A stretch of DNA of 42,802 nucleotides. It comes from an uncultured Flavobacteriaceae bacterium (lineage in GTDB: Bacteria > Bacteroidota > Bacteroidia > Flavobacteriales > Flavobacteriaceae). Location of the stretch: the NCBI GenBank assembly GCA_947497145.1, contig CANMFQ010000031.1, positions 1 to 42,802 of the forward strand, given 5' to 3'. The translations under genes and the position numbers were made by a program. The notes beneath the pieces were generated by a model, which ran no database searches, was not told the origin of the DNA, and saw only the letters and a program-made list of their open reading frames with translations. Shown here piece by piece: positions 5,106 through 42,119 of this stretch (within the stretch, counting starts at the first letter, position 1; each line of letters opens with the position of its first letter).

Positions 5106-5211
5106 CTTATAAGTGATTAATATGCTTAGTTAGCCCTTCAAATTTTGAGATCTCGAAACTAATTAAAGTGATATAAAATACCAGCTTTAACATAAAATTG
5201 ATTCTCAAAAA

Positions 5212-12500: not shown

Positions 12501-15500
12501 CTGTTACGGTTAAGGTGTAGGTACCAGGGGCACTGATGGTTGGCGTGGCCGTGTCTGCCCCACTATCTATGGTGCCATCAGCTGTTGTCCAGGCATAATC
12601 TAAGGTGCCTTGACCTGTACTGCCAGAACCATTTAACGTAAGCGTGGTTATACTACAAGTCAATTCGGCCGTTGCTCCTGCTTCTACCGTTGGGGCAGTA
12701 ATATCTTGCGTAATCACTACCGTATCAGTTGCTGTACAACCGTTATCGTCATCTGTTACTGTTAAGGTGTAGGTGCCAGGAGCGCTAATTATTGGCGTGA
12801 CCGTATTTGCCCCACTATCTATGGTACCATCAGCAGTTGTCCATACATAATCTAAAGTACCTTGTCCTGTGCCCGAACCATTTAATGTGAGCGTCATTAT
12901 ACTACAAGTCAGTTCGGCTGTTGCTCCTGCTTCTGCCGTTACAGTATTTACTGTTAATGTAGCTTCTGCCTCTTCACCACAAATATTACCTTCATTTGTA
13001 AAAGTCACTTTATAAATGTTGCCATTCATACTACTAGTAACATTTGTCAATTCTAAAGAAACGGTTTCACCACTTGCGGCAACTCCAGATTCTCCCGAAA
13101 TATTGGTGTATTCTGTGCCTCCAGCAGTTTTAAAAGACCACTGGTAATTCACATTTGTACTGGCTGTTGCCGTAGGAGTATTGCCTGATACAGCGGTTGC
13201 AGAAGCTACAGCCTCGAAAGTAACATTTTCTCCTTTACATACTTCTTTATCGGTTGGAACAGTATCTATAGAAACATCCATTCCCTCTTTGAAGGTGTTT
13301 AAACCTGATTCCGTTTTTGATGGTATCGTTGTATATGCATCATTTGTTGCATTAACACCAGCTGAAATCACTAAACCATTCGTATTTACTTGAGCATTAG
13401 ACAATGTAGGGGTGTCTATTCCATAAATACCAGTATCATCGCCATCTGCACTTTTATCGTTATACGCTTCATCTGCATCAGAGCAACCATCACCATCACT
13501 ATCTAGATCTAAATGATTTGGAATTCCATCTCTGTCAGTATCCTGCTTACTTAAAATTTGCACCTCACCAAGACTTAGAACTCCAAAACCAGATTGTTGT
13601 ATTCTAATATATCTACCCGATCTATTGACAGCCCGTGTTGTAGGGAAGCCTGCTTGCGAAGTTTCATGTATATCTAATACGCCAGGCTGGTTCTGCGTTG
13701 CGGTGACATCTTTAGACGTAAAGGGTACATCTGAAACAAAAATATGATAATCTTTTAGTCTATATTGACAACAACTACTTCTATTGTACACATTGATAGC
13801 ACTAATATATTCTACACTACCTAAATCTATTCCCCACCATTGATTATCTAAAGCTTCTGTATGAGAGAAATTAGTTAAATCTCCATCAATAGCTTTATAG
13901 GCAAGCCAAGGCGTTGTAGATTGAGATGTAGTACCTGATAAGGCAATATTATCGGTACTGGTTTCATTCTCATCTAAAATACCATCATTATCATCATCTA
14001 AATCGCAATCGTCTCCAATATTATCTCCATCACTATCAACTATGTATCCATAATTACCAGCATCTGTACAACATTCAGTATCTGTACTTCCAATTGTTGA
14101 ATTACCTACATCTTGTCCTACTCCTGCACTTATTGGTATTCCATCACTATTTACTGAAACACCAAGATTTTGCTGTACACCTGTTTTTGAAATTCCATTG
14201 TAATTTACTCCCGAGTTTCCGCCAGGCAGACTTGATGTACTTAAATCACCATAGGCAATTGCTGTTGACCCACCTTCTATGGCATCGGGGCAACCATCAC
14301 CATCGCTATCTAAATCTAAATAATCAGGAATACTATCTCCATCAGTATCTATTTCTGGATTACAAATAACAGAAAGTTTTATACTCATTGAATTTACATC
14401 GAACTCCTCTAAATTTGAAAATCTAAGTATAGCTGTAGTAACTGCGTGTGTAGATGTTACGGTATAACCTGTTTTTTCGACAGGCAACTCAATATTTCCT
14501 GCACCACTATTTGGTGTAAATGTTATTGTTGGCCCTGTGTTTTCTCGTATGTTTATACTATTGTTACCGGGGTTATAAACATCAAAACTACCCGTTGGAA
14601 CAATCAGCTTAAACACATCGGAAGACCCGTGTGTACCTAATGCTGAAGTTCCAGGATAACTCAATTGTACTTTTACAGGTTTATCAAAAGTATAAATTAC
14701 TTGAAAGTAATTTGCGGTATTGCCTTCGTTTGTAGTTGTATAGTCAGTGCTCACCACTCCTGAAGCATAGCCATTAAAATTAGATGAAGCAGCTAATTCA
14801 GGATGAGATAACGCTATTGTTGGTGTTAATATTTCTCCATTAGAAAGTGTTGTTGTCGCTGGAGTACCGATAACAGCTGAGCCTTGAATATTACTATTAT
14901 CAAAACTTACTGCAATACAATTATCTTGCTCATCAACATCTAAAATACCATCATTATCATCGTCTAAATCACAATCATCTCCAATATTATCACCATCATT
15001 ATCATTTATATACGTATAATTTCCTGCATCTTTACAGCATTCGGTATCCGTACTTCCTGTTTGTGAATCACCAACAGTTTGGCCCGTATCTACAATAATT
15101 GGAATACCTAATTTAGCAGGGTCTATTTTTTCTACAACATTTCCTAAATTTTGTTGTACACCTATTGTAGCAATTCCATAATAAGTTAAACCTGTGTTTC
15201 CTCCTGGCATACTAGAATCGATCAAGCTCGCATAGGCTATTTCAGTGGAGCCAGCTTCTATAGCATCAGGACAACCATCGCCATCACTATCTAAGTCTAA
15301 ATGGTTTGGTATTCCATCGCCATCAACATCTTGATGTAAAATTGAATATCCACAGAAATGAATATCATCAATACCTGTTGAAGTTGCCGTACCTGAAGTG
15401 CTGGTTGCATTATAAAGGTAGAAACGCAATGTATAAATTGTATTCGGCTGTAGTTTTATGGAAGATAAATCTTCATTAACGGTATCAAAAATAGCTGTAT

Positions 15501-18500
15501 TACCTCCTGGTGGCACAACTTTATTTGCTGCTAACACCGTGCTAGTTATAAAATTGTCTTTTGATATTTCTAAAGCATACGTAAATCCTGCCTGCGTTCT
15601 TCTAAAGCTAATTTTATCTGTAACAAAGGGATATGTACCAACTGATATTTGAGACTCTATATACTCATTTTGTGATTTAGATTCGCTCAGGTTTGTAGCA
15701 TTTAAATCATTTACATTTAAAGCGCTATTTATTCCGTGAACTCCTGGATAACTAATTGAAACACCAGTACCTGCTGCTATATCTGAAATAACCTTACCAT
15801 TGGCACCAGAATCTGCTGCATAAGGATCTGCCGCATCGTTAAAATTCCAAACAATACAATCTAAAGACTCTGCATACCCCTCATCAGTATCTAAAATACC
15901 ATCATTATCATCGTCTAAATCACAGCCATCACCAATACCATCACTATCGCTATCTGTTAAACCAGTATAGTTAGTAACATCTTTACAACATTCAGTATCA
16001 GTACTTCCTTTTTGTGAATCACCCACAGCTTGTCCTGCATCTACACTAATTGGGACACCCAATTTAGTAGGATCTGTTTCTTCAACGGTAGTGCCTAAAT
16101 TTTGCTGAATCGTAGTTGTTGAAATGCCATTATATCCTGCACCAGTATTTCCTCCTGGCATAGTGGAAGTAATTAAATCACTATAGGCAATTTCAGTTGA
16201 ACCACCTTCAATAGCATCTGGGCAACCATCGCCATCACTGTCTAAATCTAAATGATTTGGAATACCATCATTGTCTGTATCATAACATACATAGCCATTT
16301 AATGTAGCTGCGCTGATATAAAGCCCAGCAACATGCGGATTTGAATCTATTACTATTGTTATGGTATTGCTACCTGCTTGCCATCCTTTAGTAATTGTAA
16401 TATCTGAAACCGCTGAAAATGATGATGAAAAACTTCCATTTGAGATTCCATTAACCAATACATCAACAATAGTATCATCTGTTGCTAGAGTAAGCGTGAC
16501 ACTCAAATTTTGTTCATTAAAGTTAACTGGAATATTGATAGCACTATTTGAATATTTTAAACGTACATTATCTGATGTAAGGCCGTTTACTACTGTTGAT
16601 TCATTAATGGTATTATCTAAATCAGCATCCTTGTGATCTCCTAAGGCGTTAGGTGCACCTAAGCTCGTAAAATCAAAGCTAATCCAATCATCTGTAGTAA
16701 CCCAAAGGCTAGGATATAAATTACCTGATTGAATAGCATTTTGTGAGCCATTAATCATTGGAGTGGCATAATTTGAATAAGGTGTCCATTCTACCATCCA
16801 ATTGCTATCGTTAGCACCGATAGCATTTCCTCCAGTAGCAACATTATTCAATGGAATATTGGTTTGCGTACATTCGTCAGTATCTAAGATACCATCATTA
16901 TCATCATCTAAATCACAATAGTCACCAATGCTGTCGCCATCACTATCAACAAACAACGTACTTGCTGCGCTACAAGAATCACATTGCGGTCCTTGTTGTG
17001 TATTATCTCTTGATGTTCCGATAGCATACGATGTTCCTGAAGCTATACCATTACTATTTACAGTATGTAGTATCGTATTTATGCTATTATCACTATTAAG
17101 ATCATCATAGGTGTAAGAGCTTGATGCCGATTCTAATGCATCAGGACAACCATCAGCATCACTGTCTAAATCTAAATAATCTGGCGTTCCATCGCCATCT
17201 GTATCTTGATTTAAAATTGTATATCCACAGAATTGTATATCATCAATACCTGTTGAAGTTGACGTACCAGAAGTACTGGTTGCATTGTAAAAATAAACCC
17301 GTAATTTATGTATGGTATTGGGTTGTAACGTTATATCTGAAAAATCTTCAGTAACGATATCAAAAATACCTGTGTTACCCCCTGGTGGCACAACTTTATT
17401 TGCTACGAGTACGGTGCTTGTTACAAAATTATCATTTGATATTTCAAGAGAATAAGTGTATCCGGCTTGGGTTCTTCTGAAAAGAAGTTTATCTGCAACA
17501 AAAGGATTTACACCCACCGATATTTGAGACTCTACATACTCATTTTGTGATTTAGATTCACTTAGGTTGGTAGCATTTACATCAGCTATATTTAAGGCAG
17601 CACTTATTCCGTGAACCCCTGGAGAACTAATTGAAACTCCAGCACCTGCTACTATATCAGAAATAGACTTACCGTGTGCACCCGAATTTGCTTCATAAGG
17701 ATTTGCTGCATTATTAAAGCTCCAAACAATACAATCTGAAGGCTCTGAATACCCTTCATCAGTATCTAAGATACCATCATTGTCATCATCTAAATCTTCA
17801 TAATCATTTACGCCATCATCATCTGAATCGGTACAATTTGAGACGTTTTTATCTTGCGATGTGTTAATAGCTTGCCCTCCATTGGCAATAATAGGTACTC
17901 CATCATCGTCAACTGTAGTTCCTAAATTTCTAATTACAGGATTAACTCCTGAAATTCCAGAAAAACTAAGACCTGTATTACCTCCCGGCATACTAGAGGT
18001 TACCAATTTATTAGCTGGAATACCCAGCCCTCCTTCTAAGGCATCTGGACATCCATCGCCGTCGCTGTCTAAATCAAAATGATTTGGAATACCGTCACTA
18101 TCAATATCGTAAACATCTGGAACGCCATCTGAATTATCGTCTGTATAATCAGTAGGAGAACCATCGGTTCCTGTTCCGTTATCAGTTGTATCTAAATAAT
18201 TAAGCATTTCATCCCCATCTTCGTCCCCAAAAGGATTATAACTAGGATATTCATCAGTATCTAAAATACCATCATTGTCATCATCATTATCACAATTATC
18301 ACCAACACCATCATTATCAGTATCTACAACATAGTCATAGTTTGCAACATCTTTACAACACTCGGTATCTACAGCAAAATTTTGGGAATCTTCAATCCCT
18401 TGCTGCGAATCACTTGATGCCGTATCACCATCTAAATTTGGTGTGCCATCTATATTTGACGAAACGCCAAGATTTTGTTGAACATTGGTACTTCCTCCTT

Positions 18501-21500
18501 CAAAATTCTCGTTTATTACTAAATCTGCGTATTGATAGTCACCAGCACCTTCTACTGCATCAGGGCAGCCATCTCCATCACTATCTAAATCTAAATAGTT
18601 TGAAATACCATCAGAATCGGTATCACAATAAAAGTTTCTGACAGCCCTAATTGAAATCGTTTCATTCGTGTTAAGATTGCTAACCATCGTAAACTTCATT
18701 TCTCCTAAAAGAGCATTAGCTGATGATTTTATGGTAAATGCAGTAACCCCGCCTGATATTTTGTAACGGAGCCCTGTTATAGGATTACTCGATACATATT
18801 CTACTATTCCGCCAGATTCAGAAACAATTAATAAGTCATTGTGATCAGTTATTAAATCACCGCTATTTGAAGCATTGATTGTTTCATAAATTTTAACATC
18901 AAATTCCCATATATTGCTTGATCCTATATTTGAAAATCTGTAATACGATTCTCCTACAAATTTACCTGTACTAGTTGTTTGCTCTTCTAAATGATTACGA
19001 ATGTCTATATTACCTAAGGAGCTACCCGCTATTTCTCCATCGGCAAAAAAGATAGCATTAAAACCATCACCTACAGAAGATACATGTCTTATATTTTCGT
19101 AAGAGATACTTCCGCTTTGGGCTACTGGGCTTGTTGGGTAAGTTAAGCCAGATGCGCTACCACTTTTTACAGAAAGATCTGTTGATTCACTTATACTACC
19201 ACCTGTTAAATTTTCAAAGCCACAATCTTTTTCATCGGTATCTAAAATACCGTCGTTATCATTATCTAAATCGTTGTAATCATTAACACCATCGCCATCA
19301 GTATCGGTACAATTTGAAATTCCTTTATCTAAAGAGTTGCCTATATTCTGCGAACCATTAACAACGAGAGGTACTCCATTAGCGTCAACGGCCTTACCCA
19401 AGTTTTCTATTACAGGAGCGACACCTGAGTTTCCTGTAAAATCGACGCCTGTATTTCCGCCAGGAATGCTAGAGTCTACCAATTGACTTTCTAAAATAGC
19501 ATCTCCACCTTCCATAGCATCAGGGCAACCATCACCATCACTATCAAGGTCAAGGCTGTTTGCAATACCATCGTTATCGGAATCAAAACGCATACATAAT
19601 TCTAAATTACCTAACACAAAGCGAGAAGGGTATTCAGGATCTATACCTACTGGATTACCTATACCTGATGATGCCTCTATAACTATTTTCTTTAAAAGCA
19701 CTCCATCACTACTCGCTGTTAACCAATGACTTTGATCGCTATCAGGAGCGTAAACATCTGCATTAGCATGATAATATCCATTAGCATCTTGCGTAAGCGC
19801 TGAACCAGGAGTTAGGGTTAACGGCACTATGTTATCTGTTATATCTAAGCCATATACTTTGACGGCGTCCATAAAACCAGTATGGCGATCTATATCTTTG
19901 ATAGCGAAACTTTCTAATGCTACTTCTTCTGTAAAATTAAAAGTGAAAAACGCTTTTTCATTAGAATCGTTTGCTAAAAGATCTTCCCATTCAATATTCA
20001 TAACCAATCCATATGGATTTGCAAAATCTCCATGTAATGAGCCTGCCGAAGAACCACTATTAAACACCGAAGTAAAGGCTACACCTATTCCGGTGTTACT
20101 TAAATTAGGCAAAGTGAAATCTGATCCATACGTATCTGAAAAATTCCAAATTACACCTGCACCCGAACCACAAGCACCTTCATCGGTATCTAAAATACCA
20201 TCATTATCATCATCTAAATCATTATAATCATTTACCCCATCACCATCGGTATCGGTACAATTTGATACTGTTTTATCTATTGACGACCCTACAGACTGCC
20301 CGCCATTAACAACCATAGGAACACCATTTGCATCAACCGTAATGCCTAAATTCTCTACTACTGGTGAAACTCCTGGATTACCCGTAAAGCCGGCACCTGT
20401 ATTTCCGCCAAGAAGATTAGATGTAAATAATTGACTTTCTAATACACTATTACCTCCTTCAATACCATCAGGACAACCATCGCCATCACTGTCTAAATCT
20501 AAATAATTAGGAATACCATCGTTGTCTGTATCGCCAGTACCTTCAACAGAATCTAAAATACCATCATTATCATTGTCTAAATCAAAATCATCAACCACTC
20601 CATCACCATCAACATCTGAACAAGATGAGTTTGTTACGTTTTGAGAAACACCAATATTTTGCCCTGACCCTGCTGCGATAGGCACTCCGTATGTTGGACT
20701 ACCAGGGGTTGTATCAACATTATTTCCTAAATTACGTATTACCGCGTCAGTAACAACACCTGAATAAGATGGAGTACTTCCGTCGTTATTATTACCGCCA
20801 TCAATGGTAGAATTTACCAGTTGCGAATCTACAAAAGGACCATCTCCTTCAATTGCATCTGGACAACCATCACCATCACTATCTAAATCTAAGCTGTTGA
20901 TAAGACCATCATTATCGGTATCAAGAGGGGTGCATAAGTCTAAGTTTCCAAGAATAAACTTTGAACCAAAAGACGGTGTTGTCCCAACAGGACTGCCGAT
21001 ACCTGCTGAAGCTTCTACAACAATTTTCTTTAAAAGCTTCCCATTACTACTCACTGTCATCCAATGATTTTCATCGCTATCTGTAGAGTTATATTGAATT
21101 GCTGAATGATAGAAGCCATAAGTATCTTGGGTAAACACAGAGCCAACAGTGATGCTTAAAGGTATTATATTATCATTTACATCTACGCCATAAACTCTAA
21201 CAGCATCGATAAAACCTTGTGTCGCAGAAACATCTAAACGATCTATATCTTTTATTGCCAAATTCTGCAAAACAACCTCTTCGCTAAAATCAAAAGTTAA
21301 TGCCACTATTTCATTAGGATCAGTTGTATAGGTATCTTCCCAATTAATAGCAACAACGTAACCTTCTGCACTATAGGTGCCATTATAGCTAATGGGCGAA
21401 GAACCACTATTAAAGGCCGAAGTAAATGACATGTCTATTTCGGTGCCATTTAAATCAGTTAAATTAAAAGTAGTTCCATACGTATCGGAATTATTCCAAA

Positions 21501-24500
21501 TTATATTCGGACTTGTTCCACATTCACCATCCAAAGTGTCTAAAATACCATCATTATCATCATCTAAATCATAATAATCAGCTATTCCATCTCCGTCTGT
21601 ATCTGTACAACTAGAACTTGTTTTATCAGTAGCAGTGCCTACAGCTTGCCCTCCATTAGCAACCGTCGGTATACCATTAGCATCTACTGTATTTCCTAAA
21701 TTTGCCTTTACAGGTGAAACACCTGGGTTACCCGTAAAACCAGTACCTGTATTTCCTCCAGGCAAGTAAGAATTATACAATTGATTTTCTCCAATACTAG
21801 CCGCTCCTTCAATAGCATCAGGACAGCCGTCACCGTCACTATCTAAGTCTAAATGATTAGGAATACCATCATTATCAGTATCATTTTCTTTACATAAGGT
21901 TGAAATCCGCAAGGTGACACCTCCTTCACTCCCTGTTGTTGTAGCTGTAAAACTTACTATAGGCGTCTTAAAAGAAAAGCTTATTGCCCCGCCAGAGCTA
22001 GAAGCTCCAACAAATACATTATCATTTGTGCCAGAAACATTAACGTCAGTAGTTGCATGTACCACCGGGTAAACTGGGTTTCCATCAGTATCATACCCTA
22101 CTATTGTTTGTTCTTCAACATCACTAAGGTCTACTATTTCATACATACTACCTACTTCAGCCTCAATTGGGCTAAATGCCACTGTAGCACTAGTATTTGT
22201 TGTGTTTAAAGCAACTTGAATGTAACCAGCTGTTTGAGAAAAAGTATTATTATCGGCTACAGAAGTTACTGTACCAGTAATACCATTTGTAGCGGTAAAT
22301 GCCTCAGAAGTTGACGTTGTTGGTGGTGTGGCATTGTTCCATGTTGGAACAGTACATGATTTTTCAACTGTATCTAAAATACCGTCGTTATCATCATCTA
22401 AATCATCACTATCACTCACGCCATCGCCATCTGCATCTTCACAAGATGAAGTTTCTTTATTTGTTGAAGCACCAACACCTTGCCCAGCTCCTGCAATGGT
22501 AGGAACTCCGTATACTGGGCTACCAATAGTGGTGGTTACATTGTTTCCTAAATTACTAATCACCGCATCAGTAACTATTCCTGTATACCCTGGTGCGCTT
22601 CCATCGTTATTATTACCGCCATTAATTGTGGTTGCATCTTCTAATTGCGAATCGGTATACGAACCATCACCTTCAATAGCATCAGGACAGCCATCGCCAT
22701 CACTATCTAAATCTAAGCTATTTATTAAACCGTCATTATCTGTATCAAGTGGCTTACATAAATCTAAGTTTCCTATTATAATTTTTGATCCAAAATCTGG
22801 TGTTATTCCTACTGGGCTACCGATACTTGCAGAAGCTTCTACAATAATTTTCTTTAAAAAGATACCATTACTATGTACTGTTATCCAATGATTTTGATCA
22901 CTATCTAAAGAATTAAACTGTATTGCCGAATGGTAAAAACCATAAACATCTTGCGTAATAGCTGAACCAACTGTTGTATTTAAAGGTATTTTACTACCGT
23001 TTATATCTTCTCCATAAATTTTAACAGCATCAATAAACCCTTGTGTAGCGCTTACATCTAAACGATCTATATCTTTTATTGAAAAATTGTTTAAAGCAAC
23101 CTCTTCGCTAAAATCAAAAGTAAACACCACTGTTTCATTAGGATCTGCCTTGATAATATCTTCCCAGTTAATAGCAAGAACGTACCCTTCAGCACTACCG
23201 CTACTATTATAACTAATAGGACTAGAACCACTATTAAAGGCAGTGCTAACTGCTACATCTACTCCCGTATTGTTTAGGTTTGTTAAATTAAAGTTTTCTC
23301 CATAAGTGCCTGAATTATTCCAAATTATATTTGGACTTGCACCACAAGCGCCATCATTTGCATCAAGAATACCATCGTTATCATCATCATTATCACAATT
23401 ATCACCAATACCATCATTATCGGTATCAATAATACTTGGAAAATCTGCAGCATTAGTACAGCATTCTGTTGTATTACTATACTCTTGTGAATCTCCTACA
23501 TTTTGCGATTCATTGTCTGTATTAGTTCCCACTAAATTTGGCGTACCATCTATATTGGATGAATTTCCAAAGTTTTGCTGCACATTGGTGCTTCCGCCAT
23601 CTATATTCGTATCTGTAACTAAATTTGCACTCGTATAATTACTATTTCCATCTCCCTCTATTGCATCAGGGCAGCCGTCTCCATCACTATCTAAGTCTAA
23701 ACTATTTATGATGTTATCATTATCAGTATCAAGTATTTCACAAATAGATAGCAGCTCATAAATGACATCATCTGATGTTCCTATTGTAGTGCTTTCCCAT
23801 TTTTTTATAGGCGTATTAAATGTAAATGTTACTGTACCCGTATCGGTTGTACCTACAAATTGATTATTATTTACTCCTGATATATTTATATTATTGCTAG
23901 TGGTAACAACGGGGTATATCCTGTTGTTATTTTCATCATAACCTACAACCTCTTGCTTTTCGGTTGCACTAATATTAAATATCTTATAACTAGACCCTAC
24001 AGGTACTATATTTTCATAAACTACTGTAAAAATAGTATTACCATTGCCTCCGCCTAAATTCACACTAATATTAGAAGAAGAGGCTCCATAAGTTGGGCCA
24101 GGAGAATCAAAATCTCCGTCTCCAGCAACCAAGTTGATTGTTCCTCTAGCGCCGTTAGTTGTAAAAAATTTGGCTACCAAATTGCCATCTGATGGGGTAT
24201 CTGAAATCCAAACTGGCACTTCACAACCGCCCAATTCATCAACATCTAAAATACCATCATTATCATCATCTAAATCGCATTTATCTCCTAGATTATCATT
24301 ATCAGTATCTATAACATAGGCGTAGTTTGTTGCGTCAGTACAACACTCGGTATCTACACCAAAATTTTGTGCATCTCCTACGGTTTGTTGGGAGTCATTT
24401 GTTGCGGTATTGCCATCTAAATCTGGTGTTCCATTTAAATTTGATGAACTTCCTAAATTTTGTTGTACTTGTACAGCTACACCGCCATAATTGGGGCCAC

Positions 24501-30500: not shown

Positions 30501-33500
30501 TACTTGCATCATTATTTGAAGAGGCTGATGTCAATTGTATGGTTGTAGTACTTGGAAAAGATGTTCCGCAGTATGTTTTTGTACTATTTAGATACCTGTC
30601 ATAAGCCAATTCATCAGTATCTAAAATTCCATCATTATCATCATCTAAATCACAACCATCTCCAATACCATCATTATCACTATCAATTACAGCTGGATAA
30701 TTAGCTGCATCTTCACAACATTCGGTATCATCGCTACCCATTTGTGAATCGCCAGCAGTTTGACCCGCACCTGCAATGTTAGGGATACCATCACTATTTA
30801 CTGCATTTCCTAGGTTTTGCTGTACGCCTGTTAAAGCAATACCGCTATAATCTGCTCCTGAGTTTCCACCCGGAAGACTTGAAGTCACTAAATTTGAGTA
30901 TGCGATTGACGTTGAACCTCCTTCTATAGCATCTGGGCAACCATCACCATCTGAGTCTAGGTCTAGGCTATTAACAATGCCATCACCATCAATATCTGAA
31001 CTACAAGTAAATGAACCTGGTTCAGAAGAAGCTGAATCTTCAAAAAGCCTTATTCCATCCAAAGCCATATACTCGTAATTAAAACCAGTGCCGTCATTAT
31101 GAATCGAAAACATAAGCACTTGTGTAGTCGCTGTGGCGGTAAATGTCATGGTCTCTTCTATCCAAACTTGGTTTCCTTGACCTTTATAGTCCATTGCTTT
31201 ACTAAAAAAGATTTCTGAACCAAATTGCACCTCCCATTTGGCTTTTTGACTTACACTAACCGGTGTATTACCGTCTACACCCGCATTGGCTTGATAAAAT
31301 TTTAATTGATAAACGGTTCCTACGGTAAGACCGGTAATGTTAGTTTCAAATGATTCAGAGCTATTAGCATTGTTTACCCAACCCCCAACAAAAACACCTC
31401 CATCTGGTGAGGGTGGCATTCCGTCTGCAGCTCCTCCCCAAGTCCCAGAACCCGTTAACGGCATGGGACTTATCCATGAGTCTGGAGACTGCGATGAATT
31501 AACCCAACCAGAATTAGCACTTATATTACTATTGTAAACATCATTGGATGCAACCGGTGCTAGGGTTTCAAAAGTACCATCAGCAGCAAAATTAAATGGT
31601 ACAAATTGCGATCCAACACACTCATCAGTATCTAAAATACCATCATTATCATCATCTAAATCGCATGCATCTGCTATGCCATCATCATCAGTATCTATTA
31701 AAGTTACAGCAGGATAATTATCCGCTTCCTGACAACAAGCAAAATTATTACTGAGGTTTTGTGCTCCTCCAACACTTTGTCCTGCACCGGCACTAGTAGG
31801 TATACCATCTTCATTTACTGTAGTACCCAAGTTTTGTTGTATTCCAACTGTAGCTGTACCATTATACCCTGCACCAGAGTTTCCACCGGGCATTGTTGAT
31901 GTGCTTAAGTTTGTATATACTAATGCCGTTGACCCACCTTCTATGGCATCGGGGCAACCATCACCATCGCTGTCTAGATCTAAGTGATCAAAAATACCAT
32001 CGCCATCGGTATCTTGATTCGTTTCAGAACCAAGAGCTACATGATAAGCGGCTGCATTTCCCGCACTTCCTTGATACACACGACTAAGTAATGAAATACT
32101 ACTAATTCCATTAGGGTCATATATCGTATAATAACCTCCCGAAGCACTATGAGCAATGGTTCCTCCACCAGTACTATCTTCAATATTCATAGTAGAAGTC
32201 ATATTTGCAGGATCAAAGACATGGAAGTTTGTACTTCCGTTAAGAATTAAACTAAACCCTTCACTAAAAGTAGCATTAAATTCTCCTAAATGATCATTAA
32301 AAACTGCTCTTACACGCAAATATTTTTGTGGTACATCAAAACTATAATCAAAACGTTGTACACCATTAACAGGTTGACCATTGTTAGTTCCTGTGTTGTA
32401 TAAATACCCATCTATACTAGCAGCTGAATTATAAACTACAGTAGCTGAACCACCAGTATAATTAGCCGTTACATTAACCGTTGCTCCATCTAATAAAGTT
32501 GTAGGTGTATTATATGATACACCATTATTTAATGTACTAGGCATATTAAGTTTGGTATAATCGATACCTATATTACCTTCATCTACATCTAAAATACCAT
32601 CATTATCATCATCTAAATCGCAATCATCGCCTATACCATCACCATCGGTATCAGTTATTGCAGGATAATTTTCTGCATCTTTACAACATTCGGTATCTGT
32701 ACTTCCTGTTTGTGAAGCACCAGCGGTCTGTCCTGTTCCTGCACTTGTTGGAATACCATCAGCATTGACTGTATTTCCTAAATTTTGCTGAACGCCTGTT
32801 GATACGATTCCATTATATCCTGTTCCTGAATTTCCACCAGGTAAACTTGATGTACTTAAATTAGCATACGCTATTGATGTTGAACCACCTTCTATGGCAT
32901 CAGAGCAACCATCGCCATCGCTATCTAAATCTAAATAGTTTGGTATCCCATCGTTATCTGTATCTAAAACTGGATCGCCACAAGATGTCATTTTTAATGA
33001 TGGTCCTTCAGCTGCCATATTTTGTGTCCAAGATTGCTTCCAATTAATAACTGTTGCACTTCCGGCAGGTAAGGCTGATTTAGGAGTTAGTTTAATTTGA
33101 AAATCTGGCGTTCCACTACCAACAGTGTATGTTGTATTTGGCAATAATTCATCACCGTCATTTAAAGCTGCCACATTATTAGATGGATCAATAATATAAG
33201 CAGTATATAATGATGAATCAAAATCTATGATAAAGTCAGTAAAATTAGTTTGATTAGGGAAATATTGTGATCGAGGATCAAAAACCATTTCAAAATAGGC
33301 ATTATCAGTTCCTGAATTGCTTACCGTAAAATCTAAATCTAAATTTGGTGCTGAAATGACTACTGTATTATAAGCTTCGCTTCCTGTAGTTCTTAAATTA
33401 CCATCAAAAGTAGTATTTGGACTATTTATGGAGATTCCTACCGCAATCATTTCAGAATTCATTCCTGAAAAATTCACCGTTTTAGTAGTATTATCTGTAC

Positions 33501-36500
33501 TGGTAATACTCATGTCTTCGCAAACTAAATCGGCCATTTCATCGGTATCTAAAATACCATCATTATCATCATCTAAATCACAACCATCTCCTACGCCATC
33601 ACCATCGCTATCTGTAATTGACGCATAATTACCCGCATCACGACAACATTCAGTATTTGCACTTCCTGTTTGTGAATCACCAACGGTTTGTCCTGTTCCT
33701 GCTATCGTTGGAATACCATCACTATCAACAGTAATTCCTAAATTTTGCTGTATGCCTGTTGTTGAAATACCATTATAGTTAGCACCTGAGTTTCCACCTG
33801 GTAAACCTGATGTACTTAAATTTGCATACGCTATTGATGTTGAACCACCTTCTATGGCATCAGAGCAACCATCACCATCGCTATCTAAATCTAACTGATT
33901 GGGGATGCCGTCCTTATCTATATCACAATCTACAACTACGACAGGGGTAACTATTGCAGCGAAACTACTTGACGCTGAATTATTCTGTAAAACTTGAAAA
34001 GAAACCTTTTTTATTCCATTAGTATACAGATTAGGTAAATAAAGAAAATCTATAGTTCCATCTCCTTGTTGCGGATCTTCTGCATTAGACGCAATAGCAT
34101 GCTTTCCTGCAAACTCTATTTTATCAAGTCTTAAAGGGTCTTTTAATTTGAAATCAACATTATTTAATACTGTTCCATCATTTAAGGTTACAACAAAATT
34201 TCCTATTACTGTTTTTGTAATACTACTTGATATCTTAAGACTTTTAAAATCTAACTCTAAGTTTCTTATTTCACTATCAAAAGTAATAGCATAAGAGAAT
34301 GGTGCTGTTAACGTAGCATCGTTGGCTTCTTCAAAGAAAAATCCTGAGCCATCATTTGTTTTAATAGTTCCTCCTGTTGTTGAAAATGTGGCTGTTCGCA
34401 ATGTGCTTCCATTTACAACATATGTAGCTTGTGTATCAGATAACTGGGTAAACACTAGCATTTCATTGCATTCAACACTATCTAATATACCATCATTATC
34501 ATCATCTAAATCGCATACATCATTTATACCGTCACCATCTGAATCTGTAGCTGTAGGATTACCGTCTGTACTTGCATTGTCTGTACAAGGCTCATTACAT
34601 TTTGTAGTATCTAATTTATCTGTAACTGTTGCTGCATTTGCTTGTCCTGTTATTTCTGTGCCAGATGCTATACCACTTGTTACCATTAACGGAATACCAT
34701 TGGTATTTGATGCTGTGCCAAAATTCTCTCTTACCGCATCGGTAACTATTCCTGTATAAGTACCTGTTGTACTTCCGTCGTTATTATTACCCCCATCCAT
34801 TGTAGTGGTTGTTAACTGACTTTTTGAAAATTCACCTGCTGCTTCTATGGCATCGGGGCAACCGTCACCATCGCTGTCTAAGTCTAAATGATTGAAAATA
34901 CCATCATTATCTTCATCACAGTCAAGAGCATTTTGACCTATCCCTATATTTTTCACATTGGCTCCTAGTGCCGCAACTATAGTATTACTAGCTTCTGGCC
35001 AGGCTGTGGTTTGTAATGGCGTTCTTGTGCTATATAATTTATGATTACCTGAACTCTCAGGATCCAATATATCTAATATGTAAAAATTCCCTTCAGAAAC
35101 TGCAATATCATCGATATCATCTGGTGATATAGATAAATCCCCTTGATAAGTCCAACCAATAGCAGGATCTTTAGTTAAGAAAAGCTGAGCAGTTCCGGCA
35201 TTATTAAATACATGATAAAAAACACCATTATCAACTGCCAAATTATTTACCCCAACCCCTACACTTGAATTTCCTAAAGAAGTCCAGTTATCTCCAAAAT
35301 CGGTGCTTTTAAATACCGTTCCATTAGAATGATAATATAAATTTCCTTTGTCAACAGCAATATTTTCAACTGTTGAAGCAATTCCTGTTTCAGCATATAC
35401 AGGTGCTCCATCTCCATCGACATCAATTATACTGCTTTCAAAACTAGATTTATACAAAAACCTATCTGAGTCATATAAGTGATATACATGTGATATTAAA
35501 TCTTCACATTCACTTTGGTCTAAAATACCATCATTGTCATCATCTAAATCGCAGGCATCGCCTACGCCATCATCATCAGAATCGGTTACAAAACTATAGT
35601 TGTTAGGCTCTTTACAACAGGCTGTAGCTGTGCTTCCTATTTGTGAATCCCCTGCTGTTTGCCCTATACCTGCGGCTGTTGGTATTCCATCAGCATTTAC
35701 TGCAGTTCCTAAATTTTGCTGTATGCCTGTTGCTACAATACCATTATAACCCCCACCTGAATTACCTCCTGCAAGACTTGAAGTGCTTAAATTTGCATAG
35801 GCTATTGACGTTGAACCGCCTTCTATAGCGTCAGGACAACCGTCACCATCACTATCTAAATCTAAATGATTGGGAATACCGTCATTATCTGCGTCATTAC
35901 ATATGTAGCCATTTAAGGTAGCTGCGCCAATATAAAGCCCTGTTGTACCCGACCCTGATTCAATTACTATTGTTACTGTATTATTTCCTATTTGCCACCC
36001 ATTAGTTAGTATAATATCTGTTTCTACATTAAAGGGAGCGGAAGGATTTCCATTTGAAACTCCATTAACCAATACATCAATAATAGAATCATCTACTGCA
36101 ACTGCTAAAGTGACGCTCAAATTTTCATCATCAAAAGTAGCTGGTATAGTGATATTGCTATTTGAAAACTTTAAGCGAACTCTATCTGATGTAGGGCCAT
36201 TTACTGCTGTTTCTTCACCATTTGTATTGTCTAAATCAGCATCATTGTGATTTCCTACACCATTAGGCGGGCCTAAACTAGAAAAATCAAAGCTAATCCA
36301 ATCATCTGATGCAAACCACAATCCCGGGGCTAGATCTCCTGATTGAATAGCATTTTGTGGGCCAGTAATAAGTGGAGTAGCAAAATTTGAATAATGAACC
36401 CATTCTACAGACCAATTTGCATCATTATCACCAATCGTGTTGCCTCCTGTAGTAGTGTTGTTTAAAGAAATACTTGTTGCGGAACATTCTTCGGTATCTA

Positions 36501-39500
36501 AAATACCATCATTATCATCATCTAAATCGCAGGCATCGCCTACGCCATCGTCATCAGAATCGGTTACAAAACTATAATTATTAGGTTCTTTACAACACTC
36601 GGTATCAGCACTTCCTATTTGCGAGCTGCCTACTGCTTGCCCTGCTCCTATAGGTGTTGGTATTCCATCAGCATCTATTGCGGTTCCTAAATTTTGCTGT
36701 ACACCTGTTGCAACAATACCATTATAGCTCGCGCCTGAATTACCTCCTGCAATACTTGAAGTACTTAAATTTGTATAAGTAATTGACGTTGACCCACCTT
36801 CTATGGCATCGGGGCAACCATCGCCATCACTATCTAAATCTATACGGTTTGGAATATCATCACGATCGGTATCCAAATCTTCAAAAATTTCAACCTCAGC
36901 AATATGCAATCTATCAATGCCAGATAGTTGTATTCGTACATACCTACCCGATCTATATACGTCAATAACCGAAGGGCTACTCGCTTGAAGTGTTTTATGA
37001 ATATCTAACACACCTGGTTGAACCTGTACGGTTGCTAAAGTTGTATTGGTAAAAGGCACATCTGATACTAAAACATGATAATCAGATAATTTTTCTTGAC
37101 AACAATCACTCCTATTATAAACATTGATAAAACTAATATTTACAACACTGCCCAAATCTATCTCCCACCATGCATTGGCATCTGCTCTTGTTTGGGAAAA
37201 ATTATTGAAATTTCCATCTGTTGCGTTACCTGCAGGGTAAGCATCATTAAAATTTGATGATTCAGTTGCAGTACCCGTAAGTGCAAAATTAACAGCGCTC
37301 GCTTCTTCAACCGTATCTAAAATACCGTCATTATCATCGTCTAAATCACAACCATCTGCAATATTATCTCCATCTGTATCTGGTATACCAGCATACGCAT
37401 TGGGTTCAGGGCAACACTCGGTATCTTTACTTGCTGCTTGTGATTCGCCAATGCCTTGGCCTATGCCTGCACTTGTTGGAACACCATTACTATTTACGGT
37501 AGTTCCTAAATTTTGCTGTTCACCAGTTTTAGAAAGACCATTATAATATGTCCCAGTATTACCTCCAGATATACTAGATACTGTTAAGCTTGAAGCCGTT
37601 AAATTTGCACCACCCTCAATAGCATCTGGGCAACCATCACCATCACTGTCTAAATCATGTTGATTTTCTAGTCCGTCACCATCAATATCACAATCCACTT
37701 GGAATCGTGGAATTACTTGCTCACTAGTACTAGATGACCCATTTAGACTGTAAACAGTATACCCCATTGACTTAATCCGTTGGGTTCTGTCAACACCCAA
37801 TAGCGTAAGATCACCTTCACTACTGGCAGAGCAAGCCACAGAATAAATACCATCTGCCTCGGTTATTTTTGTTAATCCTGTATTATTGGTAATAGAAATA
37901 TCTAAGTTTGATATTCTTTTCCCATTTTCATAGGTAATATAAAAATTGCCAAACTTTGCATTTGCATCATTCTCCCTTAAATACCAATCTATATTGTCAT
38001 TTGCTGGCCATACAGGATGATCAAAATCTATATTAATTTCTTTTCCTATAGCATCGGCATCTCCTAGATGCCAAAAAAGTCTATAATTTGTATATTTATT
38101 TCGTAATTGTGCTTTGGTTTTTACCACTCTAGTACCATTCACTGCATTTATAGTAGCGGTATGCCATGGTATCACTGCGGTGGTAATAATAGGTGATTTA
38201 CAAATTTCATCGACATCTAAAATACCATCGTTATCATCATCTAAATCGCAATCGTCGCCAATAGTATCACCATCAAAATTTACGAATAAGGTACTATTTG
38301 AGTTGCAAGAATCACATTCAATAGCCTGTGTAGCATTATTTGTAGAGGTCCCAGCTCCATTGGTTGTTCCTCCTGGTGATCCGTTAGAATTTATGGGATA
38401 GGATGCTATATTTATGCGACCTTGTTTGTCTAAATCATAAAATGTATACGTACTTGAATTTGCTTCTAAAGCATCAGGACAGCCATCGTTATCACTGTCT
38501 GTATCTAAATAATTAGGTGTTCCATCATTATCAGTATCTTGAGGATTGCTTGGATCTGACCCAACTTCTACACTATCTAAAATACCGTCGTTGTCTGAAT
38601 CTAAATCGTATTGATTTATCATACCATCACCATCTGAATCTATTTTTGAAATGGTATAGCTATTTAAAAAACTTGGATATATAGACCAATAATTTGCAGG
38701 TACCGAACCACTTACCGGAGGCGTATCTATTACATTAAACACATAATAAGATGCCGTTTTTTGAAAATTATCAAAAGTAAAATATGGAGAATGATGTTGC
38801 CAATCTCCAGCCATATTAACATATACATTAGATATACTAGTATCTACACCTTCAGAAATAGGCGTAAAATGAGACGCATTGCCTATTGAATTTCCTCCAT
38901 CAGGATCATTTACTAAAATAGAACCTACACCCGATGGCGAAGATGGATTTGCACTAATTATGGCTGCTTCATCATGAGTTGGATTATTAGTAAAATTAGA
39001 CCAAGATCCTGGTTCACTCCAAGCCAAGCCATCTCTAGGGCCACTTGATCCGTTAGAAACGGATGAATATAGAAAAAATCTGAATTCTTTTAATTCAAAA
39101 GGCCTATTAGAATTCGTAGTGGTAAAAACCACTTCTGACATCGTATTGTTTTCTGTTTCGCCTTCAATATATGGATACCCAGAATTAGTCGTAAAATTAG
39201 TAGCTGCAACTGCTGTTGTATTACTTCCTGCATAAATATCAACATTAAAAACACCAGCTGGATAAAAATATCCACTTGGGGAGGTAAATTCAGCATTACT
39301 CATTCGCATACCATTTACTCCATCCGGAACAGTACCACCGTTAGAGACTCGAGCACTTGCAGGAATCACTGTTTGATCAATTAAATTCACATAAATAATT
39401 TCTCTTTCTTCATTGACATCTAAAATGCCATCGTTATCATCATCTGAATCTAAATCATTACAAATTCCATCGCTATCAAAATCATCTTTTGGTAATGTTC

Positions 39501-40029
39501 CTCCTGCTATTCCAGCGCATGTTTGTAAATTATAAGGGTAATTTAAAACTTCAATTTTAGGTTTTACATTACCGACTTCTAAGACCCAGTCACCATCTTT
39601 ACCTGTAATGTTTGTTGAAGCGTTAACTGCTAGTCCTAATGCATTTTCAATATAGTTAACCGCTTCTTTTCCTTTTTTGCCTTTAGCGAATTCACAACCA
39701 TATATATTGAGGTACAAAAATGTTGTATGTTGAATACGCAATGTTGAATTTAAAAACGTAACAATCTGTGCTGCATCTAACCATTTGCCGTTTATTAACA
39801 ATTCACCTGAACGACCGTGAGAGAATAAATGGTAGGTATTCTTTTGATTGGTATTTTGTATACGCTTGGCTAATACCGTCTTTTTGTGAAGTGATGCGTC
39901 GATATAATAGTCTGAACCATTATCATTATTAGAATTTGAATTATGCGCATGTAGGTCTATTACCAATAGGTATAGCACTACGCAGAGTAAAGCGCTTAAT
40001 TTTTTTAAAATAAAAAGATTTTTTTTCAT
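5212..40029 (-). CDS. 11,605-residue T9SS-exported modular surface protein
   Basis: A single uninterrupted frame starts at ATG 40027-40029, after a weak AAAAGG, and stops at TAA 5212-5214. The protein is about 1.2 MDa by rough estimate. Domain order is: signal peptide (1-~28, cleavage near LHA); DUF4347 (~41-155; His71, Cys112); 29 TSP3-type modules with variable inserts (~171-8868); Ig-like domain (~8922-9029); 23 near-identical PKD-like repeats (9030-10954); one divergent PKD-like repeat (~10955-11038); Cys/Asp-rich TSP3 segment (~11039-11505); CHU_C/type B sorting domain (11506-11605). Inserts include three F-type-lectin/discoidin-like domains and one Asp-box domain. It is probably exported by Sec and then T9SS, anchored or shed at the surface, and stiffened by calcium. 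I infer adhesion or glycan binding as its role. It has paralogues on both sides in the same orientation, and its own terminator (5063-5105) suggests a monocistronic unit. Its long near-identical repeats could conceal assembly error, although the frame stays intact throughout. Confidence 0.95.
5215..5514 (-). other. T9SS type B (CHU_C) sorting domain of the giant gene
   Basis: The last 100 residues contain [40 protein letters not shown] and [12 protein letters not shown], the W/FxG strand, LPAGxYYY and the terminal GYLY are the standard marks of the gliding-motility-associated C-terminal domain that targets proteins to the type IX secretion system. Confidence 0.92.
5515..6916 (-). repeat. C-terminal Cys/Asp-rich TSP3 segment of the giant gene
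   Basis: Residues ~11039-11505. Repeated patterns are [45 protein letters not shown] and CDPDNS. Two near-identical sub-blocks carry [13 protein letters not shown] and [13 protein letters not shown]. The regular Asp and Cys spacing suggests a calcium- and disulphide-stabilised rod presenting the sorting domain. It is nearly identical to the third gene up to ~6589. Confidence 0.85.
6917..7167 (-). repeat. Divergent 24th PKD-like repeat
   Basis: It has the same framework ([12 protein letters not shown] ... [10 protein letters not shown] ... [23 protein letters not shown]) but clearly diverged sequence. It ends directly at the TSP3 segment ([17 protein letters not shown]). It probably represents the ancestral end unit that was not homogenised with the rest. 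Confidence 0.75.
7168..12942 (-). repeat. 23 near-identical PKD/SprB-like tandem repeats
   Basis: Twenty-three units of 83-85 residues (249-255 bp) cover residues 9030-10954. The unit reads [43 protein letters not shown] and [14 protein letters not shown]. Two Cys per unit probably form a disulphide. Two main versions differ in the centre: [17 protein letters not shown] and [17 protein letters not shown]. One unit has NDC in place of NGC. This pattern is typical of PKD-like repeats in T9SS-exported Bacteroidota adhesins. The strong antisense open frames across this region are by-products of the repeats. Confidence 0.92.
12945..13265 (-). other. Ig-like domain linking the TSP3 array and the PKD-like array
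   Basis: Residues ~8922-9029, with features [44 protein letters not shown] and [14 protein letters not shown]. The paired Cys and the central Trp are typical of Ig-like domains in Bacteroidota surface proteins. It occurs once, exactly at the junction of the two large repeat regions. Confidence 0.65.
13546..13960 (-). other. F-type-lectin/discoidin-like domain, copy 3
   Basis: Residues ~8690-8829, just before the last TSP3 module. It shows [29 protein letters not shown] and [10 protein letters not shown]. The His lies 27 residues before the motif Arg, as in the F-type-lectin pattern HX26RXD, but the Asp is replaced by Ser. The fold assignment is good; sugar binding is uncertain. Confidence 0.75.
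24244..25214 (-). repeat. Segment duplicated in the left gene (partner 2026-2996)
   Basis: Module plus NTDGSWIG insert of the giant gene, ~97% identical and gap-free relative to 2026-2996. The flanking modules on either side of this block are much less similar to those in the left gene. Confidence 0.85.
26493..26925 (-). other. F-type-lectin/discoidin-like domain, copy 2
   Basis: Residues ~4369-4513, closely related to the copies at 36885-37302 and 13546-13960. It has [29 protein letters not shown] and GRYVRVQQS. The Asp of the F-type-lectin RxD motif is Asn here (RAN). The nearest upstream His is 30 residues before the Arg, so fucose binding is less certain. Confidence 0.75.
27335..27850 (-). 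other. Concanavalin/SPRY-like insert (family with 29158-29680)
   Basis: The insert begins [15 protein letters not shown] and ends KYVCYDKD, with Cys at both ends. Its partner copy lies two slots away at ~29158-29680 ([15 protein letters not shown] ... IYACYG). The central [20 protein letters not shown] resembles the strand pair of SPRY or laminin-G/concanavalin-like sandwiches (GDvi.v.vd....l.f..NG). This is a fold guess from pattern only; no ligand can be inferred. Confidence 0.4.
34918..35517 (-). other. Asp-box (BNR-like) insert domain
   Basis: Residues ~1505-1704, bracketed by Cys near the start (SECED) and at the end (LDCDED). It contains STDFGDNW at ~35283-35308, a full match to the Asp-box pattern SxDxGxxW of sialidase-like beta-propellers. 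Repeated strand-like segments ([42 protein letters not shown]) suggest propeller blades. It is too short for a complete six-blade sialidase, and catalytic residues are not evident, so a structural or binding role is more likely. Confidence 0.6.
36885..37302 (-). other. F-type-lectin/discoidin-like domain, copy 1
   Basis: Residues ~910-1049. Hallmarks are the start [41 protein letters not shown] and [17 protein letters not shown] and GRYVRIQ are typical of F5/8 type C (discoidin-like) sandwiches. [10 protein letters not shown] fits the RxDx4(R/K) part of the fucose-binding motif of F-type lectins, with the CC pair also seen there. The His expected 27 residues before that Arg is Gln in this copy. 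Confidence 0.75.
39565..39909 (-). other. DUF4347 domain of the giant gene
   Basis: Residues ~41-155 include [43 protein letters not shown] and GDWVLEVG. His71 and Cys112 are 41 residues apart, as in the left paralogue. It directly follows the signal peptide, so it would be the free N-terminal tip after export. Whether it is catalytic is unknown. Confidence 0.75.
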
Positions 40030-40741: not shown

Positions 40742-42119
40742 TTATCGATCTACGTAGAGATAACCAATTTTTGATCTACCCAAACCTTCTTTGTTAACAT
40801 AATGTATTACATAATAATATACGCCTGCGGGTAATCTATCTTCTTGCTTAATTACTGTTCTACCAGTAGAAATACCTGAAAAGGCATTGGTTTTATTATC
40901 ATATCCTTCGGTTTCGTATACCACAACACCCCATCTATTATATATTCTTACCGTATTCTCAGGATACAACTCAATATAGCGAATATAGAAAATACCTCTT
41001 TCTGTGTCTGGAGAAACCAAATCATTAATAATTTCTATATCACACGCTACTCCTGATGGTGGTGCACCACCTATAGAACTACAGGCATCTAAAGGATCAG
41101 TACCAACAATCATTTCCTGGTAGTCACTAATACCATCTCCATCTGTATCAGCATTGGTAGGATCAGTTCCTATTGCGGTCTCTTCACCGTTTGTCAATCC
41201 GTCTCCATCACAATCGGCAGCATTCCATGATTCGCTTACTCGCTCAATATCTTGGCTTAATTCAGCATAATCACAACCATCAAGGGGGTCGGTGCCATTT
41301 ATAATTTCTTCCCCATTGGTTACACCATCACCATCTGTATCGCCATTAACATTACAATGATCTGCTGAACTATCTGGATCACATGAGTCTTTTGGATTTG
41401 ATATGCTGTTTGGTATTGCATTGGTGCTTGGATCATCAATATTATACATTTCTTCACCATCGGTTAAGCCATCTCCATCCGTATCAGGGCTCTTAAGATC
41501 GGTACCTCTTTCTGACTCCTCTCCATTAGACACCCCATCAGAATCACAATCTAAGGCTAGCCATTCAGCACTTGGATTACTATCCTGATGTCCTACTAAC
41601 CAGTTACACGCATTAATGGGGTTGGTATTATCCATTGCCTCCTGACCATTCAATACTCCATCACCATCGCAATCTAAATTATTCCAATCTTCATCTGGTT
41701 GAGAATCTTGATGAGCTAATACAAAATCACATGCATCCAAAGGATCTGTGTTATCCATAGCTTCTTGACCATTACTTACTCCGTCATGATCACAATCTAA
41801 GGCTAGCCATTCAGCACTTACATTTGCAATAATTTGACTAGATGGGTCATAGTCACAAGGGTTTCTTAAATTCGTTCCATCTATAATTTCTTGACCATCA
41901 CTAACTCCATCTCCATCAATATCACAATCTGCGCCTGAATTATCAGGGTCACAAGCATTGGTTGGACTAGAAGTACCGTTCGGTATTAATGTTGTATTTG
42001 GATCATCTATAGTATTAACTTCTTCTCCATCAGTTAAACCATCGCCATCAGTATCTGGATTTTCAGGATCAGTTCCAATCGATGCTTCTTCAGAATTTAT
42101 TAAGCCATCACCATCGGAA
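40742..42119 (-). repeat. 3' block shared with the giant gene (partner 5212-6589)
   Basis: ~98% identical and gap-free relative to 5212-6589. Upstream of 42119 the two genes diverge: this one continues with 198-bp repeats, the giant gene with different TSP3 units and the PKD-like array. Confidence 0.88.

Follow-up and report, generated by a model that had tools for sequence, protein, structure and literature searches.

Cysteine-bracketed cassettes on a TSP3 scaffold in a giant putative adhesin of an uncultured Flavobacteriaceae bacterium

The window analysed here is a stretch of 42,802 nucleotides from an uncultured Flavobacteriaceae bacterium; it is the entire contig CANMFQ010000031.1 (C31 in the following) of a draft genome of 5.1 Mb in 198 contigs. 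Its single complete open reading frame (ORF), on the minus strand at 5212..40029 between two partial genes, encodes a giant protein of 11,605 amino acids in which similar TSP3 scaffold units alternate with variable cassettes, most of which carry one cysteine shortly after their entry and another shortly before their exit. We consider it likely that the giant is a surface protein, most likely an adhesin, exported by type B of the type IX secretion system (T9SS) and built as a disulphide-stapled, shuffling array of binding domains.

Cysteine brackets in the giant protein

In N-to-C order, the giant comprises a DUF4347 domain, TSP3-flanked segments, a PKD-like array and a TSP3-rich tail, which is followed by a CHU_C domain. 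The features of T9SS type B are this C-terminal CHU_C domain, SprA_N on contig C2 and 11 genomic matches to PorP/SprF; none of the 11 lies on C31, which ends inside both neighbouring genes.

Segmentation with the anchors D[LN]D[DN]DNDGILD (entry) and D.D.D.DGC.D (exit) yielded 28 segments between scaffold units, namely 26 cassettes of 143-211 amino acids and two short linkers. An entry cysteine within 17 residues together with an exit cysteine within 8 residues was found in 21 of these 28 segments, which is within one of the 'about 22' counted by an earlier, sequence-only reading of this DNA, and 20 of the 21 contain no further cysteine. The seven segments without a bracket are c02, c13 and c28, which have two contiguous cysteines (CC), c07, which has none, c11, and the linkers c20 and c23. 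An extra N-terminal segment at about amino acids 210-470, outside the 28, also lacks cysteine; the giant ORF alone holds 225 cysteines in total. The same layout had been proposed for the gene on the left, where indeed three of the four cassettes are bracketed.

The limits of 17 and 8 residues were chosen after viewing the window, and loci from other genomes served as a later check. Segments shorter than 80 or longer than 400 amino acids were excluded from the counts (6 in the own genome, 80 elsewhere), and c01, although counted among the 21, is missed by the stricter pattern used for the own-genome segment, parity and association counts. Among the 100 own-genome segments, 72 had both cysteines, 23 neither, 4 the entry and 1 the exit cysteine only. 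The sequence-only reading had suggested looking for the same scaffold with other cassettes in other genomes, and the bracket recurred there: the 169 segments taken from 67 loci elsewhere divide into 121, 26, 9 and 13 in the same order. Chance was set aside as an explanation, as 500 shuffles of cysteine positions gave a mean of 0.9 (maximum 5) bracketed segments per 100 own-genome segments and a mean of 2.2 (maximum 7) per 169 segments of the other loci. Cysteine frequency in the own-genome segments was 4.5% in the first 17 residues, 9.1% in the last 8 and 0.23% in the interior. To keep out included scaffold, which had chained 86 segments together, 28 segments containing TSP3 pairs were removed, reducing 269 segments to 241 cassettes in 110 BLAST families. 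In this cleaned set, 188 cassettes had both cysteines, 35 neither, 13 the entry and 5 the exit cysteine only; by family majority, 80 families were bracketed, 17 had none, 10 the entry and 3 the exit cysteine only. Altogether, the cysteine bracket is real and more general than could be seen from the window.

The scaffold was identified as TSP3 by profile (PF02412 / PF18884 test): TSP_3 reached 55.2 bits on the two-cassette stretch 24244-26487, exceeding the cut-off of 25, and remained below it on one lone scaffold (15.2 bits) and on a stretch of 2,620 amino acids (21.6 bits), and the C-terminal part of the giant scored 199 bits with TSP3_bac (cut-off 25). Calcium binding by these connectors would be expected from the family. 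Scaffold alignment A1 contains 27 invariant columns. In the own genome, a scaffold profile matched 146 times, the ORFs concerned lying on C23, C31, C35, C41, C11 and C45 among others. The profile also matched 136 of 199 sampled genomes of the same family, mostly in its generic TSP3 part only (E about 1e-5 to 1e-9), and few matches to the full profile had E <1e-15. Loci outside the own genome include Kordia, Chryseobacterium, Polaribacter, Aquimarina, Tenacibaculum, Saprospiraceae and Cytophagaceae, the named loci being the best 80 of 203 from one scan and thus a sample biased toward near relatives.

The features of the window are as follows, all of them on the minus strand; amino acid i of the giant begins at position 40029-3(i-1).

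5212..40029, minus: giant ORF, 11,605 amino acids
39559..39903, minus: DUF4347 domain near the N terminus, amino acids 43-157 (PF14252, 63.1 bits, cut-off 24.6)
13972..38538, minus: 28 scaffold units, each made up of an exit TSP3, a linker and an entry TSP3, interleaved with the cassettes
37690..38214, minus: c01, bracketed, one additional cysteine
36874..37314, minus: c02, F5/8C fold, contiguous CC, unbracketed
35896..36495, minus: c03, bracketed, Cadherin-like (25.2 bits, barely over the cut-off of 24.2)
34918..35517, minus: c04, bracketed
33925..34479, minus: c05, bracketed
32965..33546, minus: c06, bracketed, near-identical copy on contig C54
32014..32586, minus: c07, cysteine-free, close copies on C35 and C41
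30997..31629, minus: c08, bracketed, weak resemblance to choice_anch_C (24.8 bits, cut-off 120)
30073..30618, minus: c09, bracketed
29158..29685, minus: c10, bracketed
28240..28767, minus: c11, two cysteines near the entry (16 and 30, counted from 0), unbracketed
27325..27852, minus: c12, bracketed
26488..26934, minus: c13, contiguous CC, unbracketed, c02 relative by BLAST
25561..26109, minus: c14, bracketed
24637..25182, minus: c15, bracketed, the cassette in both AlphaFold models
23731..24243, minus: c16, bracketed
22747..23361, minus: c17, bracketed
21883..22371, minus: c18, bracketed
20923..21537, minus: c19, bracketed
20533..20550, minus: slot c20, linker without cassette, 17 amino acids between anchors
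19585..20187, minus: c21, bracketed
18625..19239, minus: c22, bracketed
18109..18258, minus: slot c23, linker of 50 amino acids without cassette, 61 amino acids between anchors
17206..17763, minus: c24, bracketed
16282..16881, minus: c25, bracketed
15331..15888, minus: c26, bracketed
14350..14937, minus: c27, bracketed
13543..13971, minus: c28, contiguous CC, unbracketed, H-X26-R-X-S-X4-R, c02 relative by BLAST
7150..12987, minus: PKD-like repeat array, period 83-85 amino acids (PF18911, 23 stretches), approximate borders read from the sequence
5221..5499, minus: CHU_C (T9SS type B) C-terminal domain of the giant (PF13585, 68.2 bits, cut-off 27)
1..4578, minus: left gene with four cassettes, start present, 3' side running off the contig
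2419-2964, 1462-2025 and 499-1083, minus: bracketed cassettes of the left gene
3352-3939, minus: unbracketed cassette of the left gene
40742..42802, minus: right gene, 3' part only, with a TSP3-like tail and a CHU_C domain

Judged by eye, the N terminus of the left gene is similar to that of the giant. In the case of the right gene, the last 1.6 kb (40723-42319) are 94% identical in nucleotides to the 3' end of the giant (about 5194-6789), and the 3' ends of neighbouring giant genes may be homogenised. The PKD-like repeats, which lie in the same ORF as the cassettes, form a long array of closely similar units, of which 22 starts were found by one motif and 23 by a shorter motif. At 8001-12000, within this array, G+C rises to 47-48% with a strong AT skew, compared with 34-39% away from the array.

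Cassette folds with and without a bracket

The sequence-only reading had assigned the cassettes to unrelated families, and Pfam bears this out, as L-type lectins, PA14 and F5/8C domains are all found among the bracketed ones. In related loci, bracketed L-type lectins (PF18483) lie between TSP3 motifs (L048 with 130.1 bits, L050 with 117.1 bits, cut-off 78.3; two of the eight members of their BLAST family were scanned with Pfam). Within the own genome, PF18483 matched nothing. A bracketed PA14 cassette scored 57 bits (cut-off 24), and bracketed F5/8C cassettes scored 52.8 and 45.7 bits (cut-off 28.2). Within the window, 17 cassettes were searched with Pfam, the remaining 9 being BLAST relatives of these; 15 of the 17 had no match over cut-off, and c02 and c03 passed. 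The fold of c02 is F5/8C by profile (PF22633 with 65.4 bits, PF00754 with 50.1 bits), and c13 and c28 were joined to it by BLAST, not by profile scan. NCBIfam (eight cassettes, one scaffold and the N-terminal part) gave sub-cut-off matches only, PHROGs gave nothing for the one stretch searched, and PDB sequence searches gave no match for A2 and A6 (E <= 1) or for c15 with scaffold (0.1). The 21 PDB sequence matches of A4 (best E 0.15) look like chance and were discarded.

Three of the unbracketed segments, c02, c13 and c28, are among ten own-genome cassettes that make up an F5/8C-type family; eight of the ten have the contiguous CC without a bracket and two a bracket without the CC. All eight CC cassettes show the motif R-X-(D/N/S)-C-C-X-X-(R/K), and seven have a histidine 26-29 residues upstream: c28 combines H-X26 with RSSCCQYR and c13 combines H-X29 with RANCCQNR, and c02 has RSDCCQEK with no histidine in range. 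This is near the fucose-binding motif of F-type lectins, of the type H-X24-R-X-D-X4-(R/K) with contiguous cysteines, and in the eel agglutinin AAA the contiguous Cys82-Cys83 bond contacts the sugar at the fucose site (PMC5712786, in excerpt). Unlike in F-type lectins, histidine spacing and aspartate are not strict in the CC cassettes, and c02 carries the Pfam label F5/8C / NedA-like. Because the motif is near that of the F-type fucose site, the sole disulphide of the CC cassettes probably serves the binding site. In the other unbracketed families, all seven members of the c07 family are cysteine-free, and the four members of the c11 family have two cysteines near the entry. Slots c20 and c23 look as if they were never filled, or emptied; a comparable slot of 6 amino acids is found in L126.

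That a clamp is what lets foreign domains be accommodated in the stalk, as had been suggested from the sequence, is too strong a claim, since unstapled cassettes and empty slots share this scaffold with the stapled ones (7 of the 28 segments) and the entire c07 family does without a staple. Nor do L-type lectins, the one fold for which both contexts were compared, support the clamp as a scaffold-enabling feature. In 298 genomes from the family to which this bacterium belongs, 43 L-type lectin matches were obtained, of which the 30 with loci were examined and divided by eye into 25 without and 5 with TSP3 flanks (L168, with a TSP3-like motif downstream only, was counted among the 25); the cysteine classes were likewise read by eye. 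Together with the eight sequences of alignment A10, the TSP3-flanked set amounts to 13 lectins, all of which have the outer cysteine pair. The same pair is present in 8 of the 25 lectins without TSP3 flanks, and the remaining 17 comprise 14 with three other cysteines, one of which lies in the last strand as judged by eye, and 3 with neither arrangement.

Adjacent termini are a property of legume lectins and discoidin domains, and in coagulation-factor C domains the termini are joined by a disulphide. It is a plausible, though less favoured, explanation that the staple is the ordinary N-to-C disulphide of secreted beta-sandwich domains, inherited with them and unrelated to scaffold or force. 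The eight lectins that have the outer pair outside TSP3, the 14 with three other cysteines instead, and the unstapled cassettes in the same scaffold all fit this explanation. Against it, the outer pair turns up in three or more unrelated folds, and the one fold compared shows a difference between 13/13 and 8/25 (Fisher p 6e-5, with kinship uncorrected and sets that may share species). A staple special to the TSP3 context is weakened by the same eight lectins. TSP3 context accompanies the staple only in part: the scaffold does not require the staple, and the staple is also found outside it.

In six records of the L-type lectin family (L050, L076, L077, L091, L109 and L125), the entry cysteine is the first residue past DGI.D. 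These records come from Chryseobacterium, Epilithonimonas and Aquimarina, and L050 alone among them was scanned with Pfam; L076 is labelled as a Bifidobacterium breve metagenome-assembled genome and looks mis-binned.

Probable partners of the bracket cysteines

The entry and exit cysteines of one cassette behave as a pair. Their presence is strongly associated, with Fisher p values of 5e-26 over the 241 cassettes and 2e-10 by family majority, and with odds ratios of 414 (own genome) and 27 (other loci). Both cysteines were lost or gained jointly in one PA14, one F5/8C and one unnamed family; single changes within families also occur (families 10 and 28). Conservation of the bracket in homologues, which the sequence-only reading had implied, stood in three family alignments, where both cysteines are invariant (13/13, 5/5 and 5/5), and failed as far as position is concerned in two others: the entry cysteine shifts in both, the exit cysteine in just one.

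A first alternative is that the bracket cysteines pair with those of the scaffold (GCPD, TECC, GDxC) instead of with each other, and the closest entry cysteine is indeed just some 15 residues past the scaffold GDxC. However, own-genome scaffolds fitting the search pattern have an even number of cysteines in 96 of 96 cases (81 with four, 12 with two and 3 with six), whether or not a bracket cysteine adjoins, and those of the other loci in 69 of 69 (60 with two and 9 with four). Furthermore, the window's six short scaffolds lack both the second cysteine of TECC and that of GDxC, which suggests that those two pair. Pairing of bracket with scaffold cysteines is therefore improbable. Intermolecular bonds between neighbouring adhesins are very improbable, as joint presence in one cassette favours an intramolecular pair. 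Lastly, a bond spanning the scaffold from the exit cysteine of one cassette to the entry cysteine of the next, which are both present in 41 of 66 adjacent pairs in the own genome, is extremely improbable, since this co-presence is near independence, with non-significant odds ratios of 2.1 (p 0.29) in the own genome and 5.1 (p 0.09) in the other loci.

Association, even scaffold counts, concerted change and invariance, taken together, indicate that the entry and exit cysteines of one cassette most likely pair with each other as a disulphide. This agrees with the bond proposed in the sequence-only reading, as parity, co-occurrence and concerted change all place the partner of a bracket cysteine within the cassette and not in the scaffold.

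To place the bracket in a structure, AlphaFold models of c15 were examined, each based on 6 alignment rows. The model of c15 with short flanks (215 amino acids) is mostly beta, with a mean pLDDT (predicted local distance difference test) of 64.4 and a pTM (predicted template modelling score) of 0.67. Its first strand (17-21) directly follows the entry Cys16, and its last strand (182-192) directly precedes the exit Cys193. The best Foldseek match of the longer scaffold-c15-scaffold model and of this model was CBM86 in both cases (2.3e-3 and 5.7e-3, respectively), followed by other carbohydrate-binding modules, MAM, discoidin-type and unrelated beta proteins, a hint at a jelly-roll for c15.

Besides the lectins that carry the outer pair outside TSP3, several points weigh against a stapled array of sugar-binding domains. 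A single bracket cysteine is present in 18 of the 241 cassettes (thresholds 17 and 8), among them those of L048, L104 and L117, which miss the threshold narrowly, and cassettes of L055, L072, L075, L108, L109 and L142 each hold just one cysteine. The scaffold-c15-scaffold model (439 amino acids) has a mean pLDDT of 44 and a pTM of 0.36, the shorter model has pLDDT <50 around both bracket cysteines, and neither has a PDB match in Foldseek at E <= 0.001. Among the 17 Pfam-searched window cassettes, only c02 has a lectin-like fold, so that sugar binding would apply by inference to a minority. The own-genome cassette L134:1210-2007, which is cysteine-free, is over the cut-off for lactonase-like beta-propeller families, and the cassettes are thus not all beta-sandwiches. 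As to a source of disulphides, no VKOR match was found in the own genome by a search that was positive in 3 of 14 control genomes and that did not extend to other oxidases; in Flavobacterium johnsoniae, SprF is disulphide-bonded to GldK, i.e. disulphides do form in that envelope (PMC12635249, in excerpt). The region is also repetitive, and a 198-contig assembly could contain errors in it. Finally, a load-shielding role of the staple is something that we infer, by analogy with Spy0128 and Cpe0147, which are discussed below.

Apparent cassette exchange and comparison with known systems

Near-identical cassettes are found in diverged scaffolds. Over its 582 nucleotides, cassette c06 matches the copy on C54 at 98.1%, with flanking scaffolds at 78.6 and 78.7%; at four-fold sites the cassette is at 96% and the flanks at 58-59%. 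A gene on C47 contains two cassettes that share 97.4% of their nucleotides (98% at four-fold sites), with flanks at 65.3 and 69.9% in nucleotides and 35-39% in amino acids; the four-fold sites of the flanks of both pairs range over 47-59%, those of the C47 flanks being just 15 and 16 in number. The copies in question are at 32965-33546 of the window, L134:2386-2967, and L137:409-996 and 1375-1962. In eight profiled cassette pairs, identity on the diverged side drops within roughly 30-90 nucleotides of the cassette edge. In the case of c15 and its copy in the left gene, the downstream scaffold is common (98.1%) and the upstream one diverged (71.6%), and in some other pairs one flank is common too. 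Near-identical cassettes between diverged scaffolds indicate that cassettes appear to be copied between giant genes as units, in cassette-sized events; the fall of identity at the cassette edges places the joints in or near the DNA of the TSP3 motifs.

The statement that the scaffold barely changes holds for the protein, with a median identity of 50% and a range of 29-85% (370 BLAST rows for 378 pairs), and not for the DNA, as flanking scaffolds are mostly at 33-69% at four-fold sites in the compared pairs, three being higher. The constant scaffold would thus be kept mainly by selection on the protein, with cassettes being copied as units. Over 96 scaffolds, aligned without gaps, the 33-nucleotide entry motif has a mean identity of 90.8% and the exit motif of 82.7%, compared with 72.1 and 57.6% beside them. 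A special conservation of DNA at the joints was not retained as an explanation: protein constraint explains much of it, codon choice in the motifs being near the usual bias except for some preference for GGT and ATT.

In the mechanism that we propose, near-constant TSP3 connectors would alternate with exchangeable cassettes, some at least of sugar-binding folds, and most cassettes would be closed by a disulphide from just before the first strand to just after the last. With both ends of a cassette tied at one point, the staple would carry the force that pulls on the stalk, so that the binding domain could stay folded. A wider version, which we offer tentatively and regard as somewhat doubtful, is that the TSP3 scaffold is a Bacteroidota-wide socket for any compact domain with adjacent ends, with the staple isolating it from load, conserved TSP3-coding DNA acting as recombination joint and one genome keeping a shuffling library of about 100 displayed domains.

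For annotation, a cysteine just past DGILD and a cysteine just ahead of DxDxDGI would mark the borders of an uncharacterised candidate binding domain. This signature could reach far, as 80 of the 110 cassette families are mainly bracketed and most scanned cassettes are without a Pfam match over cut-off. The proposed mechanism also yields a testable prediction on how giant adhesins bear load.

No published description of TSP3-scaffolded cassettes with bracketing cysteines was found in the titles and beginnings of abstracts searched, a search that had most subscription journals and bioRxiv outside its range. Among the nearest counterparts are the SprB-type gliding adhesins of F. johnsoniae, SprB being a type B T9SS substrate with SprF as its carrier (PMC12635249, in excerpt). 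The giant resembles them in its CHU_C terminus and in the presence of SprA and PorP/SprF in the genome, and differs in that its chain is a TSP3-scaffold array with swappable cassettes and in that no PorP/SprF match lies on this contig.

The staple would be analogous to the clamps between first and last strands, made of isopeptide or ester bonds, of Gram-positive adhesins. In Spy0128, such an isopeptide bond makes the domain inextensible up to 800 pN; in a stalk domain of Cpe0147, an ester bond has the same effect, and mechanical stability was retained when a disulphide replaced it (PMC8382745, in excerpt). The predicted cysteine pair would likewise link first and last strands covalently. Unlike in these two proteins, the cysteine pairs here are natural, the protein is a T9SS substrate, several unrelated folds are involved in place of one Ig-like fold, and the clamped domains are candidate ligand binders, not stalk domains only. 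The giant adhesin of Mobiluncus mulieris, with 7,651 amino acids and 51 Ig-like domains, also has cross-links within domains, ester and isopeptide bonds joining first and last strands (PMC10619420, in excerpt); it uses one Ig-like fold, and its own disulphide lies between strands 2 and 5 instead of at the ends. Regarding exchange, shuffling of the NR2-like adhesive domains of CshA/B yields new bacterial adhesins (PMC10952558, in excerpt), there with one mutable fold at adhesin tips and here with many families and up to 26 filled slots per chain.

In conclusion, covalently clamped adhesin domains are already known, with isopeptide or ester chemistry, Ig-like folds and Gram-positive hosts according to the excerpted sources (PMC8382745, PMC10619420), and what is new here is the putative disulphide clamp, its several folds and the shuffling T9SS array. 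If this reading is true, Bacteroidota would have reached the same mechanical solution with disulphides, across several unrelated folds and together with cassette exchange.

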